A stretch of 64,000 nucleotides of DNA from Psychrobacter sp. TAE2020. GTDB taxonomy: Bacteria > Pseudomonadota > Gammaproteobacteria > Pseudomonadales > Moraxellaceae. The stretch spans positions 2,765,351 to 2,829,350 of the forward strand of contig NZ_JAHLMU010000001.1 in the NCBI RefSeq assembly GCF_018919485.1, given 5' to 3'. The position numbers were made by a program, and so were the translations under genes. The notes below the pieces were generated by a model that searched no databases, was not told the DNA's origin, and saw nothing but the letters and a program-made list of their open reading frames with translations. Below, one piece after another: positions 21,665-60,685 of this stretch (position 1 is the stretch's first letter; the number at the start of each line of letters is the position of its first letter).

Positions 21665-23368
21665 ATGGATATCGACCAAGCTCATACAGTAAAAATAGAT
21701 AAAGTTTTAGCAGTCATTAGTTTATCTATAGTTTTTATTTCTGTGATTGCACTTTCAGTTTTTTCAGAAGAATCAATTGATTTTGCAGCCAAGCTTTTGT
21801 ATTGGAGTACAACAGTTTTCTCCACTCCAGTTTTATTATTTACAATTTTTTCATTTGTATTTGTTATTAGTTTAGCTTTTAGCAAATATGGTCATATAAA
21901 ATTAGGTGAAGGTAAGCCTGACTATAAGACATCCTCGTGGATTTTTATGTTCATGATGGCCGGACTCGGCTCTTCATTATTGTACTGGGGGTTTTTGGAT
22001 TGGGCATATTATTATCAGACTCCTGGATTAAATGTTGAACCCAACAGCTCTGAATCATTAAAATATAGCGTCCCATATACAATGTTTCACTATAGCTTTA
22101 GTGCATGGGCAATCTATGCGATAGCTTCAATATCTGTCTGCTACAGCTTCCACGTTCGCAAGAATAAAGGCTTAAGTCTTGCTTCAATGATAGAGTCGAT
22201 CACTGGTTTTAAGGCAACGGGTATTGTCGGGCGTCTTGTTGATTTGATGTTCTTGTTATGCATGTTTGGCGCCCTAACCATATCACTAGTGCTCACCGCA
22301 CTCACTTTTACTAATATTTTGTCCTCCCTCACAGGTATACCTGATACTTTCATGACAAATGCTATCTTTGTTTTGGGGGCTTCAGTATTGTTTGCGATAA
22401 GTTCGTATATTGGTATGGACAAGGGTATGCAACGGCTCAGTTCCATGGTGTGTTACGCATTGATGGCTTTCGTCGCGTATATTTTTATTTTTGGCCCTAC
22501 GAAGTTTATTTTAGATAATACCATCTCAAGTGTAGGACATATGGCTACTAATTTTGTAAGCATGAGCCTGTTTACTGATCCGTTAGGTGATGGCAAATTT
22601 ACCCGTGAATGGACTGTTTTTTATTGGCTATGGTGGATCTCCTATGCACCAGGTGTAGCTTTATTCGTCACGCGCGTCTCAAAGGGTCGAACAATTAAAG
22701 AAGTTATCTTAGCGATGGTGTTAGGTGGCTCTGTTGGTATGCTGATTCTCTTTGGTATCATGGAAAGCTTCAGTGTTTATCAATTTATCAACGGATTCGT
22801 TAATGTTCCAGAAGTATTGAGCTCACAAGGCGGTGAGTTTGCCATTGTTCAGCTATTAGGTATGCTTCCTGGTGGAACTATGATGATGTGGTTTTTGCTA
22901 GCAATTATGGTGATCTTTTTAGCGGCGCATATGGATGCCGTTGGGTATGCCGTGTCAGTAACGTGCTCCAAGGACTTAATGGAAGGTCAAGATCCTGCCC
23001 CAAGAACTCGATTATTTTGGTGTGTGATGTTAACACTACTACCTTTAGCAATGATTTTCTCTAAAGCCCCTTTAGACACTATGAAAACGGCAACAGTTGT
23101 AACAGCCATTCCCTTTATTGTCATTATTTTAATCCAAACCTTCGGCTTTGTAAGGTGGTTACGTGAAGACTATTCAGATTTGCCATCTTACTTGATTGAA
23201 AAAGGCGAAAAGAGTGAGTCTCTAAGACTTATTCAAACAGAAAAGCTTATTCAAGGAAGTGAAAAGATAGCTACAAATAAGCATTCTAATTTAATTGAGA
23301 AAGATGAAGTGAGTGATTCTTCAAGCTTTATTCAAGAAAATCAAAAGGTGATAATAGATAAGCCTTAG
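21665..23368 (+). CDS. BCCT-family transporter, probably for carnitine
   Basis: A 567-residue inner-membrane protein with twelve hydrophobic helices and the BCCT signature region (YWLWWISYAPGVALFVTRVS followed by KGRTIKE). The last 70 residues are a hydrophilic charged tail, with imperfect repeats of LIEKG/LIEKD and SLRLIQ/SSFIQ, which may act in regulation. BCCT carriers move quaternary amines such as betaine, choline and carnitine. The position between D-malate dehydrogenase and the carnitine oxygenase points to carnitine. The start ATG 21665 has AAAAGGA upstream. No obvious terminator separates it from cntA, so co-transcription is likely. Confidence 0.88.
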   Translation: MDIDQAHTVKIDKVLAVISLSIVFISVIALSVFSEESIDFAAKLLYWSTTVFSTPVLLFTIFSFVFVISLAFSKYGHIKLGEGKPDYKTSSWIFMFMMAGLGSSLLYWGFLDWAYYYQTPGLNVEPNSSESLKYSVPYTMFHYSFSAWAIYAIASISVCYSFHVRKNKGLSLASMIESITGFKATGIVGRLVDLMFLLCMFGALTISLVLTALTFTNILSSLTGIPDTFMTNAIFVLGASVLFAISSYIGMDKGMQRLSSMVCYALMAFVAYIFIFGPTKFILDNTISSVGHMATNFVSMSLFTDPLGDGKFTREWTVFYWLWWISYAPGVALFVTRVSKGRTIKEVILAMVLGGSVGMLILFGIMESFSVYQFINGFVNVPEVLSSQGGEFAIVQLLGMLPGGTMMMWFLLAIMVIFLAAHMDAVGYAVSVTCSKDLMEGQDPAPRTRLFWCVMLTLLPLAMIFSKAPLDTMKTATVVTAIPFIVIILIQTFGFVRWLREDYSDLPSYLIEKGEKSESLRLIQTEKLIQGSEKIATNKHSNLIEKDEVSDSSSFIQENQKVIIDKP

Positions 23369-23448
23369 GTTTATAAAATATTTAAACTTTGTGCTTTGTC
23401 TATAAGTGAATTGATTTTAGGTCAATACTTTAGATACCTAACTTTATC

Positions 23449-23640
23449 TTTGACAAGGAGGTCACTATAAATACTAACAAGGAAAACCATATGAAATTTA
23501 ACGAAGAAAGCACTATAGACGTTAACAAGGAAGCCACTATGAATGTTAATAAGGAAGACATTATGAACGTTAATAAGGAAGACACTATGAATACTAATAA
23601 GGAAGCTGCTATGAATGCTAACAAGGAAAACGCTCTCAGA
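23449..23640 (+). repeat. Eight 24-bp tandem units carrying a Shine-Dalgarno and ATG, across the cntA start
   Basis: Units begin at 23449, 23473, 23497, 23521, 23545, 23569, 23593 and 23617. The consensus is AACAAGGA followed, 6-8 bases later, by ATGAAT, so most units hold both a ribosome-binding site and an in-frame ATG. The first unit (ACAAGGAGGTCACTATAAAT) has the best Shine-Dalgarno but ATA in place of ATG. The third lost both elements. The repeat length is a multiple of three, so every ATG is in frame with cntA. Confidence 0.93.
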
Positions 23641-24774
23641 GGATCCAACAGTTCTACAATGGGGGTAACAGATAAACTACCTGAAGATTTCGATCAGGAT
23701 GCAGATAATGCTTGGACATTACCTAAGGTTTTTTATACTTCTAAAACGGTATTCGAAAAAGAAAAAGAAGAAATTTTTGCAAAGAGCTGGATTTGCGTTT
23801 CACACATGAATGAAGTTGCAAATCCTAATGATTATTTTACGCGTAAAATAATTGGCGAAAATATTATTGTTATTCGTGGTAAAGATTCTGTTTTACGTGC
23901 TTTTTACAATGTATGTCCTCACCGCGGTCATGAATTATTAACAGGATCAGGCAAGTCTAAAAACGTAATTACTTGTCCATATCATGCTTGGACTTTTAAG
24001 CTTGATGGTTCATTGGCATTAGCACGTAATTGTGAAAATGTTGCTAACTTTGATAAAGAAGAATTTGGCCTTGTTTCTTTAAAAGTTGAAGAATATGGTG
24101 GGTTTGTCTTTATTAATATGGATCCTGAGGCAACGTGTGTTGAAGATCAACTTCCTGGCTTTGCTGCCAAATTAAATGAATCATGTGCAGTGATCAAAGA
24201 CTTGAAACTTGCAGCAAGGTTCATGACTGATACACCAGCAAACTGGAAAGTTATTGTCGATAACTATATGGAGTGTTACCACTGTAGTAATGCCCATCCT
24301 GGCTTTGCAGACTCTGTTCAAGTCGATAAATACTGGCATACCATGCATGGCAATTGGACCCTTCAGTTTGGTTATGCAAAATCTTCTGAAAAGTCATTCA
24401 AACTAGATCCATCAGCGGGGGATGCGTCTTTTAGTGGGTTTTGGACATGGCCTAGTACCATGTTTAACGTAAACCCTGGAGGAGACTTCATGACTGTTAT
24501 ATATGAGTTTCCAGTCGATGAAGAAACGACTATACAGCAATATGATATCTATTTTATGAACGAAGAGTTGACTCAAGCTCAAAAAGACTTGATTGAATGG
24601 TACAAGCATGTATTCCGCCCTGAAGATTTAAGTCTAGTAGAAAGTGTACAACGTGGACTAAACTCACGGGGCTACAGAGGCCAAGGACGTGTCATGACTG
24701 ACCAACAACGTTCTGGAATTAGTGAACATGGTATCGCTCATTTTAATAATCTTGTAGCGAAGTATCATCAGTAA
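23491..24774 (+). CDS. cntA: Carnitine monooxygenase oxygenase component, with a repeat-derived N-terminal extension
   Basis: A Rieske oxygenase that, with CntB, splits carnitine into trimethylamine and malic semialdehyde. The Rieske [2Fe-2S] ligands are in CPHRGH and CPYHAW. The mononuclear iron site is in NYMECYHCSNAHPGF. Its Glu-Cys-Tyr-His spacing gives the Glu that marks CntA/YeaW-type enzymes in place of the usual bridging Asp, followed by the two His ligands. The longest frame (ATG 23491) gives 427 residues. The family-like N-terminus, MGVTDKLPEDF, starts at ATG 23659 and would give 371, which is the length I recall for Acinetobacter CntA. The extra 56 residues come from the 24-bp repeats, so several starts are possible. 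A hairpin and the aldehyde dehydrogenase gene follow. Confidence 0.92.
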   Translation: MKFNEESTIDVNKEATMNVNKEDIMNVNKEDTMNTNKEAAMNANKENALRGSNSSTMGVTDKLPEDFDQDADNAWTLPKVFYTSKTVFEKEKEEIFAKSWICVSHMNEVANPNDYFTRKIIGENIIVIRGKDSVLRAFYNVCPHRGHELLTGSGKSKNVITCPYHAWTFKLDGSLALARNCENVANFDKEEFGLVSLKVEEYGGFVFINMDPEATCVEDQLPGFAAKLNESCAVIKDLKLAARFMTDTPANWKVIVDNYMECYHCSNAHPGFADSVQVDKYWHTMHGNWTLQFGYAKSSEKSFKLDPSAGDASFSGFWTWPSTMFNVNPGGDFMTVIYEFPVDEETTIQQYDIYFMNEELTQAQKDLIEWYKHVFRPEDLSLVESVQRGLNSRGYRGQGRVMTDQQRSGISEHGIAHFNNLVAKYHQ

Positions 24775-57019: not shown

Positions 57020-60000
57020 GTTTCAATCCACGCACCTGCGATAGGTGCGAATTTTGAGTATCATGCTTTATTGTCTCCATAAAGTTTTAATCCACGCGCC
57101 CGTTATGGACGCGAAACCGTTCTCTATATGCGGTGTCGCTATTGAGAGTTTCAATCCACGCGCCCGTGATGGACGCGAAAAGATGAGTGTCAATTACTAG
57201 CTTCTATCAACTGTTTCAATCCACGCGCCCGTGATGGACGCGAACTTGTATTTCAAGCATGGAGCGATGCCGGTATTGTTTCAATCCACGCGCCCGTGAT
57301 GGACGCGAACACCGCATAGGTGGCTTAGAAGATGTCGTACAGTTTCAATCCACGCGCCCGTGATGGACGCGAACCGATATCTTATCTACGGTCACGCGCT
57401 CAAGCGTTTCAATCCACGCGCCCGTGATGGACGCGAAACCAACCTTGCCAAAGCGTTTCGCTCTCAGTTGTTTCAATCCACGCGCCCGTGATGGACGCGA
57501 AATCATCATCGTGATAACTACTAGTTTCTGAGCGTTTCAATCCACGCGCCCGTGATGGACGCGAAGGCACTGGCTCTAATAGCGTCTAGCTCAGTAGGGT
57601 TTCAATCCACGCGCCCGTGATGGACGCGAAACCGTTTTCTATATGCGGTGTCGCTATTGAGAGTTTCAATCCACGCGCCCGTGATGGACGCGAACAGTCT
57701 TAGCATTTTACGAGGATTTGCTCGAGAGTTTCAATCCACGCGCCCGTGATGGACGCGAAGGGTTTTCACACGATATGCTAGACCGTCTGATGTTTCAATC
57801 CACGCGCCCGTGATGGACGCGAACAAGGTCAAGTTTATATGATGCTGTGGGGCAAGTTTCAATCCACGCGCCCGTGATGGACGCGAAACTAGGAAACTAG
57901 GAAACTAACATGAGCTTAAAAGTTTCAATCCACGCGCCCGTGATGGACGCGAAATTTGCTAATACCAAACAACAAGGTTTACTCAGTTTCAATCCACGCG
58001 CCCGTGATGGACGCGAATTTTCTAATGGCTTGAAATGATTGCGCTCTAAGTTTCAATCCACGCGCCCGTGATGGACGCGAAAACTGGAACGGTATTTGTT
58101 ATCGAGTCATTGGAGTTTCAATCCACGCGCCCGTGATGGACGCGAATTGCAGCTTGTTTAAATGAGCTGACTATCTGTAGCGTTTCAATCCACGCGCCCG
58201 TGATGGACGCGAATTTTATCAGAATCACATATAAATGGATTATTTTGTTTCAATCCACGCGCCCGTGATGGACGCGAAAACCTTCGCTGCTGATGTGAAG
58301 ATGTCACCCGTACCGTTTCAATCCACGCGCCCGTGATGGACGCGAAATTCTTACTGTCACAGCTTAACCGTGCTGTAGAGTTTCAATCCACGCGCCCGTG
58401 ATGGACGCGAATTTTAGGCTTACGTATCAAGACAACGGTAGTTTGTTTCAATCCACGCGCCCGTGATGGACGCGAATGATCCGTCATATAGCCATTGCAC
58501 AGCGTTCTGTTTCAATCCACGCGCCCGTGATGGACGCGAACTTTGACAACATAGCAGAGGCCATTGTTGCTAAGTTTCAATCCACGCGCCCGTGATGGAC
58601 GCGAACTGACAAGTTTACGTCTGAGTATGCGTTATCTGAGTTTCAATCCACGCGCCCGTGATGGACGCGAATTGCCCTTTAGGTAACCAAACTCTATCTT
58701 CTTGTTTCAATCCACGCGCCCGTGATGGACGCGAAAGATATGCGCCTACCTCGTCGACAATTGCTAAAGTGTTTCAATCCACGCGCCCGTGATGGACGCG
58801 AATTTATTAATACAGATATGTTATTATATCTATATCGTTTCAATCCACGCGCCCGTGATGGACGCGAAGTCAGGATTATGACCACCATATCACTGATAAC
58901 ATGGTTTCAATCCACGCGCCCGTGATGGACGCGAATCGGTTTGATTATGACTTTAATCACCTTGGATGTTTCAATCCACGCGCCCGTGATGGACGCGAAG
59001 AATCCTTACCTAGGATTCTGCCGACTTGGATTGTTTCAATCCACGCGCCCGTGATGGACGCGAATATTGGCAATGAATTTAACCACTGCTTCACTAGTTT
59101 CAATCCACGCGCCCGTGATGGACGCGAATGTTTGTCAAAAAGATAACTAAGCAAAAGTATGACGTTTCAATCCACGCGCCCGTGATGGACGCGAACATGG
59201 CAGTTGTTTGAAATCATCCAAGAATAGTTTCAATCCACGCGCCCGTGATGGACGCGAATAACATCGCTATCGTCTAGCGGCACATCAATAGTGTTTCAAT
59301 CCACGCGCCCGTGATGGACGCGAACTTGAGCGGTTAGAGTTTATTATCTATTCATGGTTTCAATCCACGCGCCCGTGATGGACGCGAACCATTCGCTGCG
59401 TGGCGCTTTCTATGACTTTGCTGTTTCAATCCACGCGCCCGTGATGGACGCGAACCTCATGGCTTAGTTTGGTGTTATTGATGACAGGTTTCAATCCACG
59501 CGCCCGTGATGGACGCGAAGGTATTTGGTGCAATAAAACAAGTAGCTACATTGTTTCAATCCACGCGCCCGTGATGGACGCGAACAGAAAATCGCTATCA
59601 TCAATGATATTGACCAAGTTTCAATCCACGCGCCCGTGATGGACGCGAATGATGCTGCTAACGAGTCGGCTGACGCTAACAAGTTTCAATCCACGCGCCC
59701 GTGATGGACGCGAAATGAGGGCCTTATTTTATCCACAGGTGCAATTAGTTTCAATCCACGCGCCCGTGATGGACGCGAATACAGGGTTTAGGCCCTTAAT
59801 ATTAGTTACCTTGTTTCAATCCACGCGCCCGTGATGGACGCGAAGACACTGGGGCAATATCCATCTGTGACTTTAGCGTTTCAATCCACGCGCCCGTGAT
59901 GGACGCGAAATTACGGCTGCTGCCCTCGTATCATCATTAAGAGTTTCAATCCACGCGCCCGTGATGGACGCGAATGGGGTCACATCACTGGTCGTATTGA

Positions 60001-60685
60001 TGAAATGTTTCAATCCACGCGCCCGTGATGGACGCGAAAAAGTAGGCGCTGCCCTTGGTGAAGGTAGCACGTTTCAATCCACGCGCCCGTGATGGACGCG
60101 AATATTTTAGTACAGATATGTTATTATATCTATATCGTTTCAATCCACGCGCCCGTGATGGACGCGAAGCCTTATGGGCAGTCGTTTTGTTTATGTATCG
60201 GTTTCAATCCACGCGCCCGTGATGGACGCGAAGCGACGTACTCAAGCGCCCATTTGTTTATCATGTTTCAATCCACGCGCCCGTGATGGACGCGAAGTTA
60301 CGGCCCGTACGCTAATTAAGTGGGGTAACGTTTCAATCCACGCGCCCGTGATGGACGCGAAGCGCCCATGTTGCCCGTGTAACCGCCTTGCTTGTTTCAA
60401 TCCACGCGCCCGTGATGGACGCGAACACGCTGTTTTTACCTGCTACAGTTGCATTGGAGTTTCAATCCACGCGCCCGTGATGGACGCGAAATGTTTTTTT
60501 GGTGCGCGATGTGGTTGAGTTGGTTTCAATCCACGCGCCCGTGATGGACGCGAAGAAGTCATTGTTATAACAGACAAATACAACGACAGTTTCAATCCAC
60601 GCGCCCGTGATGGACGCGAAGGCCTAAACCCTGTACAATTAGGCCAGTTAGTAGTTTCAATCCACGCGCCCGTGATGGACGCGAA
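57020..60685 (-). CRISPR. Type I-C CRISPR array, 57 repeats and 56 spacers
   Basis: Repeats are 32 bp; on the transcribed (minus) strand they start TTCGCGTCC and end GTGGATTGAAAC, as in type I-C. Spacers are mostly 32-36 bp. The first repeat at 57020-57051 (plus-strand coordinates) is heavily altered (CACCTGCGATAGGTGCG) and the second at 57084 has two changes, so that end is the old, trailer end. The other end, at 60685, abuts the leader and cas2. I counted repeats by reading starts at 57020, 57084, 57148, 57213 and so on to 60654. Spacer pairs 57116/57631 and 58803/60103 are near-identical, and 59780 and 60621 overlap as inverse sequences. Confidence 0.97.

Follow-up and report, generated by a model that had tools for sequence, protein, structure and literature searches.

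The closest described counterparts of the locus reported here are engineered. Zhang et al. (2022, Nucleic Acids Res., PMC9723656) placed tandem units, each with a ribosome-binding site (RBS) and a start codon, in frame before one gene. According to the parts of that paper covered here, every RBS was used in B. licheniformis, each with its own protein band, and with six units output increased as much as 5-fold; the start codons were required. A spacing of 8 nt was best, and distances of 15-21 nt between Shine-Dalgarno (SD) sequences were effective, with 12-24 nt tested. E. coli DH5alpha initiated solely at the gene-proximal RBS and lost output; BL21(DE3) initiated at two, the nearest and the farthest. 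The authors expect the design to fail in Gram-negatives and call multi-RBS genes rarely reported. In B. megaterium, tandem initiation sites brought no titre gain for a silk protein, as described in the covered parts of PMC10821235.

Natural tandem repeats at the 5' end that affect the productive start are known from the phase-variable lic1 and modA genes of Haemophilus and Neisseria. In the covered parts of the two sources (PMC3899988, PMC2651432), these repeats are short, mostly tetranucleotides, and switch expression ON or OFF by shifting the frame. The TAACTGA direct repeats of Beggiatoaceae overlap the ribosome-binding region of many genes; as far as the covered parts of PMC4679880 go, their 7-bp unit has little SD character and holds no ATG.

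In the 64-kb stretch of DNA analyzed here (the window), eight imperfect 24-bp units lie at 23449-23640 on the forward strand, ahead of the core of cntA. Like the engineered multiple initiation sites, this array strings SD and start codon together in frame, keeps an SD-start spacing of 7-8 nt and is expected to yield a series of N-terminally extended products. The engineered arrays, judging from the covered parts of both papers, are hairpin-based, comprise 1-6 repeated units and were effective in three Gram-positives and proved ineffective in E. coli and, with a silk protein, in B. megaterium, whereas the cntA array is natural and degenerate, has 24 nt between SDs and sits in a Gram-negative host. 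It differs from lic1 and modA in that its imperfect 24-bp units contain the initiation site itself and keep the frame. The array looks like the natural counterpart of the known engineered leaders. The initial annotation had remarked that such an arrangement had not been seen described; this holds for natural arrays of tandem RBSs or start codons in the largely open-access literature searched, and fails for engineered ones, whose equivalents are published (PMC9723656, PMC10821235).

The array has one known relative, on plasmid pP32BP2 (NZ_MK422609) of Psychrobacter sp. DAB_AL32B. The CAR module of this plasmid (PMC6514802, covered in part) contains the orthologous operon, with cntA and the array, which there has 7.5 units and a 36-bp duplication. 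The covered parts of that paper make no mention of the array. They report that the module turns carnitine into trimethylamine (5.46 mM after 120 h from 5 mM carnitine), so a cntA led by the array functions in vivo, and that trimethylamine from carnitine halts growth of DAB_AL32B.

Architecture of the cntA array

The gene behind the array is cntA, as first annotated, and encodes the oxygenase subunit of carnitine monooxygenase. Its product is similar over its full length to the solved CntA structure 6y8j (E 1e-215), with the alignment covering residues 54-427 of the extended protein and beginning only at residue 54. The surrounding genes form the carnitine operon context expected of CntA, and the gene order LysR / dehydrogenase / BCCT / cntA / aldehyde dehydrogenase / reductase is that of the pP32BP2 CAR module. 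The BCCT transporter gene adjoins the array upstream, with its stop at 23368. Among the NCBIfam models, none scored above its cutoff for CntA; the best, glycine betaine monooxygenase, stayed well under cutoff. Other CntA proteins begin at or near the position equivalent to ATG 23659, the canonical start.

Tandem Repeats Finder reported a period of 24, as well as 48 and 72, within 23453-23631. The lag-24 identity of the array is 0.714, compared with 0.30 +/- 0.033 in 2000 shuffles that kept dinucleotide composition (shuffle maximum 0.417), and the repeat is therefore far beyond chance. A typical unit, xxT AAY AAG GAA GAC ACT ATG AAY, consists of an AAGGA SD, 7 nt and an ATG. Five of the eight units combine AAGGA with an in-frame ATG 7 nt downstream, and the longest exact direct repeat within the window array is 16 bp. 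The initial description of eight 24-bp units repeating the initiation region, at least five of them with AAGGA and an in-frame ATG, and of nested starts that extend the protein by up to 56 residues proved accurate on each point (Table 1).

Table 1. Features of the cntA array and its surroundings (positions in the window)
Feature	Coordinates	Strand	Description
Inverted repeat	23417..23441	+	Perfect TTAGGT-N13-ACCTAA just 5' of the array; putative operator or hairpin
In-frame stop TAG	23431..23433	+	5 codons upstream of unit 1; TAA at the equivalent place in pP32BP2
Unit 1	23449..23472	+	Strongest SD of the array, AAGGAGGT, then ATA (23467), not ATG; 23/24 identical in pP32BP2
Unit 2	23473..23496	+	AAGGA and ATG 23491; +56 residues
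Unit 3	23497..23520	+	Degenerate: ACGAAGA and ATA; neither good SD nor ATG
Unit 4	23521..23544	+	AAGGA and ATG 23539; +40 residues
Unit 5	23545..23568	+	AAGGA and ATG 23563; +32 residues
Unit 6	23569..23592	+	AAGGA and ATG 23587; +24 residues
Unit 7	23593..23616	+	AAGGA and ATG 23611; +16 residues; SD-ATG pair closest to the enzyme core
Unit 8	23617..23640	+	AAGGA, but CTC where ATG is expected; 23/24 identical in pP32BP2
Linker, array to core	23641..23658	+	18/18 identical in pP32BP2
cntA core	23659..24774	+	371 codons; its first codon corresponds to the start of other CntA proteins; SD context poor
Longest ATG-initiated cntA reading frame	23491..24774	+	427 aa

The cntA frame is open from the TAG upstream of unit 1 through the array to the cntA stop at 24774. 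The remaining two frames are interrupted by one or more stops in almost every unit of the array. The open frame alone is little proof, because the probability of meeting no stop in 28 substitutions is about 0.5.

The dyad just 5' of the array is the single exact match to TTAGGT-N13-ACCTAA in the window; with up to 3 mismatches, 33 matches were found and 33.4 are expected by chance. Both of its arms are unchanged in pP32BP2, and its spacer carries 3 changes. Starts in the first units would be lost if a promoter lay further down within the array; our promoter scan returned nothing exceeding shuffles.

Divergence between the window and pP32BP2

The two replicons agree at 1067/1116 positions of the cntA core, at 152/180 of the array, with one 12-bp gap, and throughout the linker. 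The core is under strong constraint (dN/dS 0.0068/0.220, or 0.03), in contrast to the array (0.171/0.191, or ~0.9), where dN may be inflated by unit turnover, which blurs positional orthology. Differing codons are synonymous or non-synonymous in a ratio of 41/4 in the core and 4/17 in the array (Fisher p 1e-8). These two comparisons indicate that the tail peptide is hardly constrained as protein. A functional N-terminal protein repeat, another candidate for what the array might be, is rejected on the same values, which speak against purifying selection on the peptide.

The initiation signals behave differently from the rest of the array. SD and ATG sites changed at 3/59 positions, compared with 25/121 at other array positions (p 0.008), a count that depends on where the 12-bp gap is placed and becomes 4 to 5 with other placements. 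Excluding unit 3, degenerate in the window and the plasmid alike, leaves 1/51 and 22/105 (p 0.001). Within units 2-7, SD and ATG positions changed at 3/43 compared with 23/89 elsewhere (p 0.01). The outer units 1 and 8 are nearly identical in the two replicons (Table 1), and the five inner units comparable over their full length match at 18-20 of 24 positions.

Only two alleles are known, with 8 units in the window and 7.5 in pP32BP2. Units 4 and 6 of the plasmid copy are identical and lie inside a 36-bp internal tandem duplication, and the plasmid array contains an exact repeat of 35 bp. AAGGA precedes an ATG in plasmid units 2, 4 and 6, and the SD-ATG pairs of units 3 and 7 are weaker. The array lengths differ by a net 12 bp. 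Both this difference and the 36-bp duplication are divisible by three, and the frame is kept; the annotated expectation that units could be gained or lost without breaking the frame is thus matched by turnover between two relatives.

Choice of start codon and competing explanations

We compared candidate starts with a simplified, home-made thermodynamic model of ribosome binding, whose terms are SD pairing, spacing, local folding and start codon. The five array ATGs of the window have model energies of -0.2 to -5.8 kcal/mol, compared with +8.1 for the canonical ATG 23659, whose aligned SD spacing is 12 nt. Set against the starts of the 23 window ORFs that begin with ATG and span at least 250 aa (the array-led cntA ORF is among them), the array ATGs outscore 18-23, whereas 23659 outscores 2. 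The strongest are those of units 6 and 2, not 7, by a small margin. The score of unit 1 was left out, since its start codon, ATA in both replicons, had only an assumed start term in the model. For pP32BP2, the model gives +5.7 at the canonical ATG and -3.6 to +1.0 at the four array ATGs preceded by AAGGA or GGAA as SD; three array ATGs that have neither SD score +4.9 to +9.7, overall no better than the canonical start. Unit 7 of the plasmid has lost AAGGA (ATGGA) and scores +0.5, about equal to its units 4 and 6. The canonical cntA starts of Acinetobacter score -3.9 to +0.9 (six of 22 loci). By these model energies, initiation very probably occurs inside the array. Further down the operon, the modelled starts of aldehyde dehydrogenase (24848, +1.7) and reductase (26369, +3.0) fall short of the array ATGs, which predicts a steep translation ratio inside the operon.

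We consider it probable that the array is a natural multi-start leader, with ribosomes starting at one or more array units and not at the ancestral ATG 23659. A 24-bp block of SD, 7-nt spacer and ATG would have been tandemly duplicated in frame upstream of cntA, and one or several of the five units with SD and ATG would be used in place of the ancestral ATG, whose SD context is poor here. Each initiation in the array would read on into CntA, adding 16 to 56 dispensable residues to the N-terminus of the enzyme. These additional sites would most likely raise or secure cntA initiation relative to its operon neighbors, and units may have been gained, lost and degraded over evolutionary time with the frame intact. 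A multi-start leader calls for at least two tandem in-frame units of SD and start, and the window has five. The success of engineered tandem RBS-start units (PMC9723656, in the parts covered) supports the multi-start reading. We infer from these data that array starts are used in the cell, that more than one may be used and that output may be boosted.

Under the multi-start reading, the annotated N-terminus of cntA is probably wrong. The array apparently replaces the ancestral start in two replicons, which would show that duplication of an initiation region tunes a single cistron within an operon, and length steps divisible by three would keep every variant functional. More tentatively, and short of favoring the idea, we can envisage array units loading ribosomes additively on this one metabolic cistron, with tails that are selectively almost free and unit turnover tuning dosage over evolution. 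The main counter-evidence to additive use comes from the engineered arrays (PMC9723656 and PMC10821235, as covered), which relied on one or two starts in E. coli, brought no gain in B. megaterium and were effective at SD distances shorter than the 24 nt seen here. If true, additive loading would run contrary to the E. coli-based expectation that such arrays fail in Gram-negatives, and the locus offers a test case for start choice in arrays in E. coli and in other Gram-negatives.

An alternative that we regard as unlikely, although it survives best, is that the array is a degenerating relic of duplication in which only unit 7 (ATG 23611) is used, adding 16 residues, with the other units as passengers. 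SD and/or ATG have already been lost in units 1, 3 and 8 and exact repeats in the window array reach just 16 bp, yet the SD and ATG sites of units 2-7 have changed less than their surroundings. The sole use of the gene-nearest RBS by E. coli DH5alpha (PMC9723656) and the lack of gain from tandem sites in B. megaterium (PMC10821235), both in the parts covered, also fit one working start; nevertheless, unit 7 is not the strongest modelled ATG in the window, if by little, and in pP32BP2 it lacks AAGGA and scores similarly to units 4 and 6.

It is improbable that the array is a non-coding 5' UTR repeat ahead of a start at 23659. The open frame upstream of 23659 holds strong SD-ATG pairs and no intervening stop, and 23659 itself, with its 12-nt aligned spacing, is among the weakest starts compared, even though the pP32BP2 gene is annotated from its canonical ATG, the array peptide is unconstrained and other CntA proteins start at or near the equivalent position.

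Most improbable is the contingency-type switch put forward in the initial annotation, in which a rapidly flipping unit number would switch cntA output, to the benefit of a host for which trimethylamine from carnitine is toxic (as in DAB_AL32B; PMC6514802, parts covered): the frame-preserving rearrangement between the alleles and possible instability at the 35-bp exact repeat of the plasmid copy would suit it, but the window units are only about 71% alike at lag 24 and so are not near-perfect repeats, this degeneracy and the 16-bp limit of exact repetition argue against fast slippage, and the two alleles, all that are known, both keep good-looking in-frame starts, neither being OFF.

Similar arrays in other genomes

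At E <= 1e-60, cntA occurs in 1/105 genomes of the genus, this one, which is part of the set. Three SD-ATG units in a row, in patterns that fixed AAGGA and a 7-nt spacer and would miss other designs, were found in 1/348 Moraxellaceae genomes and in 1/369 sampled genomes of the class Gammaproteobacteria, in both cases this genome only; the two sets share this genome and one other (G309) and make up 715 distinct genomes. Reversed-pattern controls gave 7 matches in one Moraxellaceae genome and one each in two genomes of the class sample, which indicates that unrelated repeats of similar form exist at a low rate.

At other cntA loci, none of the best 80 of 540 relatives has two RGGA-N5-10-ATG pairs within 250 nt upstream, a pattern that misses weaker SDs such as the TGGAG of Acinetobacter. 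Tandem Repeats Finder recovered the pP32BP2 array and, at the same best 80 loci, detected short repeats in four (L018, L034, L040 and L041), none spanning SD and start. A search of the array against plasmids returned 13 records at E <= 10, with pP32BP2 at 3e-55 and the rest at E 2 to 8; phage records gave a single match at E 0.7. No cntA was confirmed in viral contigs.

Viral contigs contain 51 stretches with three SD-ATG units, which on reading are for the most part plain repeats within repetitive coding sequence, or lie in frames that hold no gene. Three IMG/VR contigs have in-frame SD-ATG arrays with periods of 33, 21 and 18 bp (L140:3999-4079 on the minus strand, L108:2826-2903 and L139:1409-1459, respectively), and these resemble genuine arrays of an initiation region, three or four units long, at apparent gene starts. 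Duplicated initiation regions recur in viral contigs. Another IMG/VR contig has an octanucleotide run, (AAGGATGC)n, directly 5' of a membrane-protein-like ORF (L091:133-195); it looks like a classical switch, in that SD and ATG overlap in every unit and the period of 8 shifts the frame. In a congener (G075), a 24-bp stretch with SD and ATG stands in two perfect tandem copies (L084:1498-1545) at the start of a gene for an exported-looking protein of ~200 residues, unrelated to cntA. The first step toward an array such as that of cntA would likely look like this.

Among the matches listed, 17 duplicated SD-ATG pairs precede an ORF of at least 60 codons, or 15 when two in-phase pairs deeper in an open frame (L232, L262) are left out. 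The period is divisible by three in 10/15 of these (p 0.0085 against 1/3), although two of the ten stop before the second start. Non-duplicated pairs before such ORFs are in phase in 32/68, from which 10/15 is not different (p 0.25), so the excess of in-frame periods among duplicates is not evidence.

Two other repeat regions stand out in the window. A long CRISPR-like array spans 57083-60620, with ~32-bp repeats beginning GTTTCAATCCACGCGCCCGTGATGGACGC and a period of ~64-66 bp in Tandem Repeats Finder. Large tandem repeats of 363 and 297 bp occupy 1-2407, the first array (1-777) with 100% matches, and are adhesin-like by appearance only.
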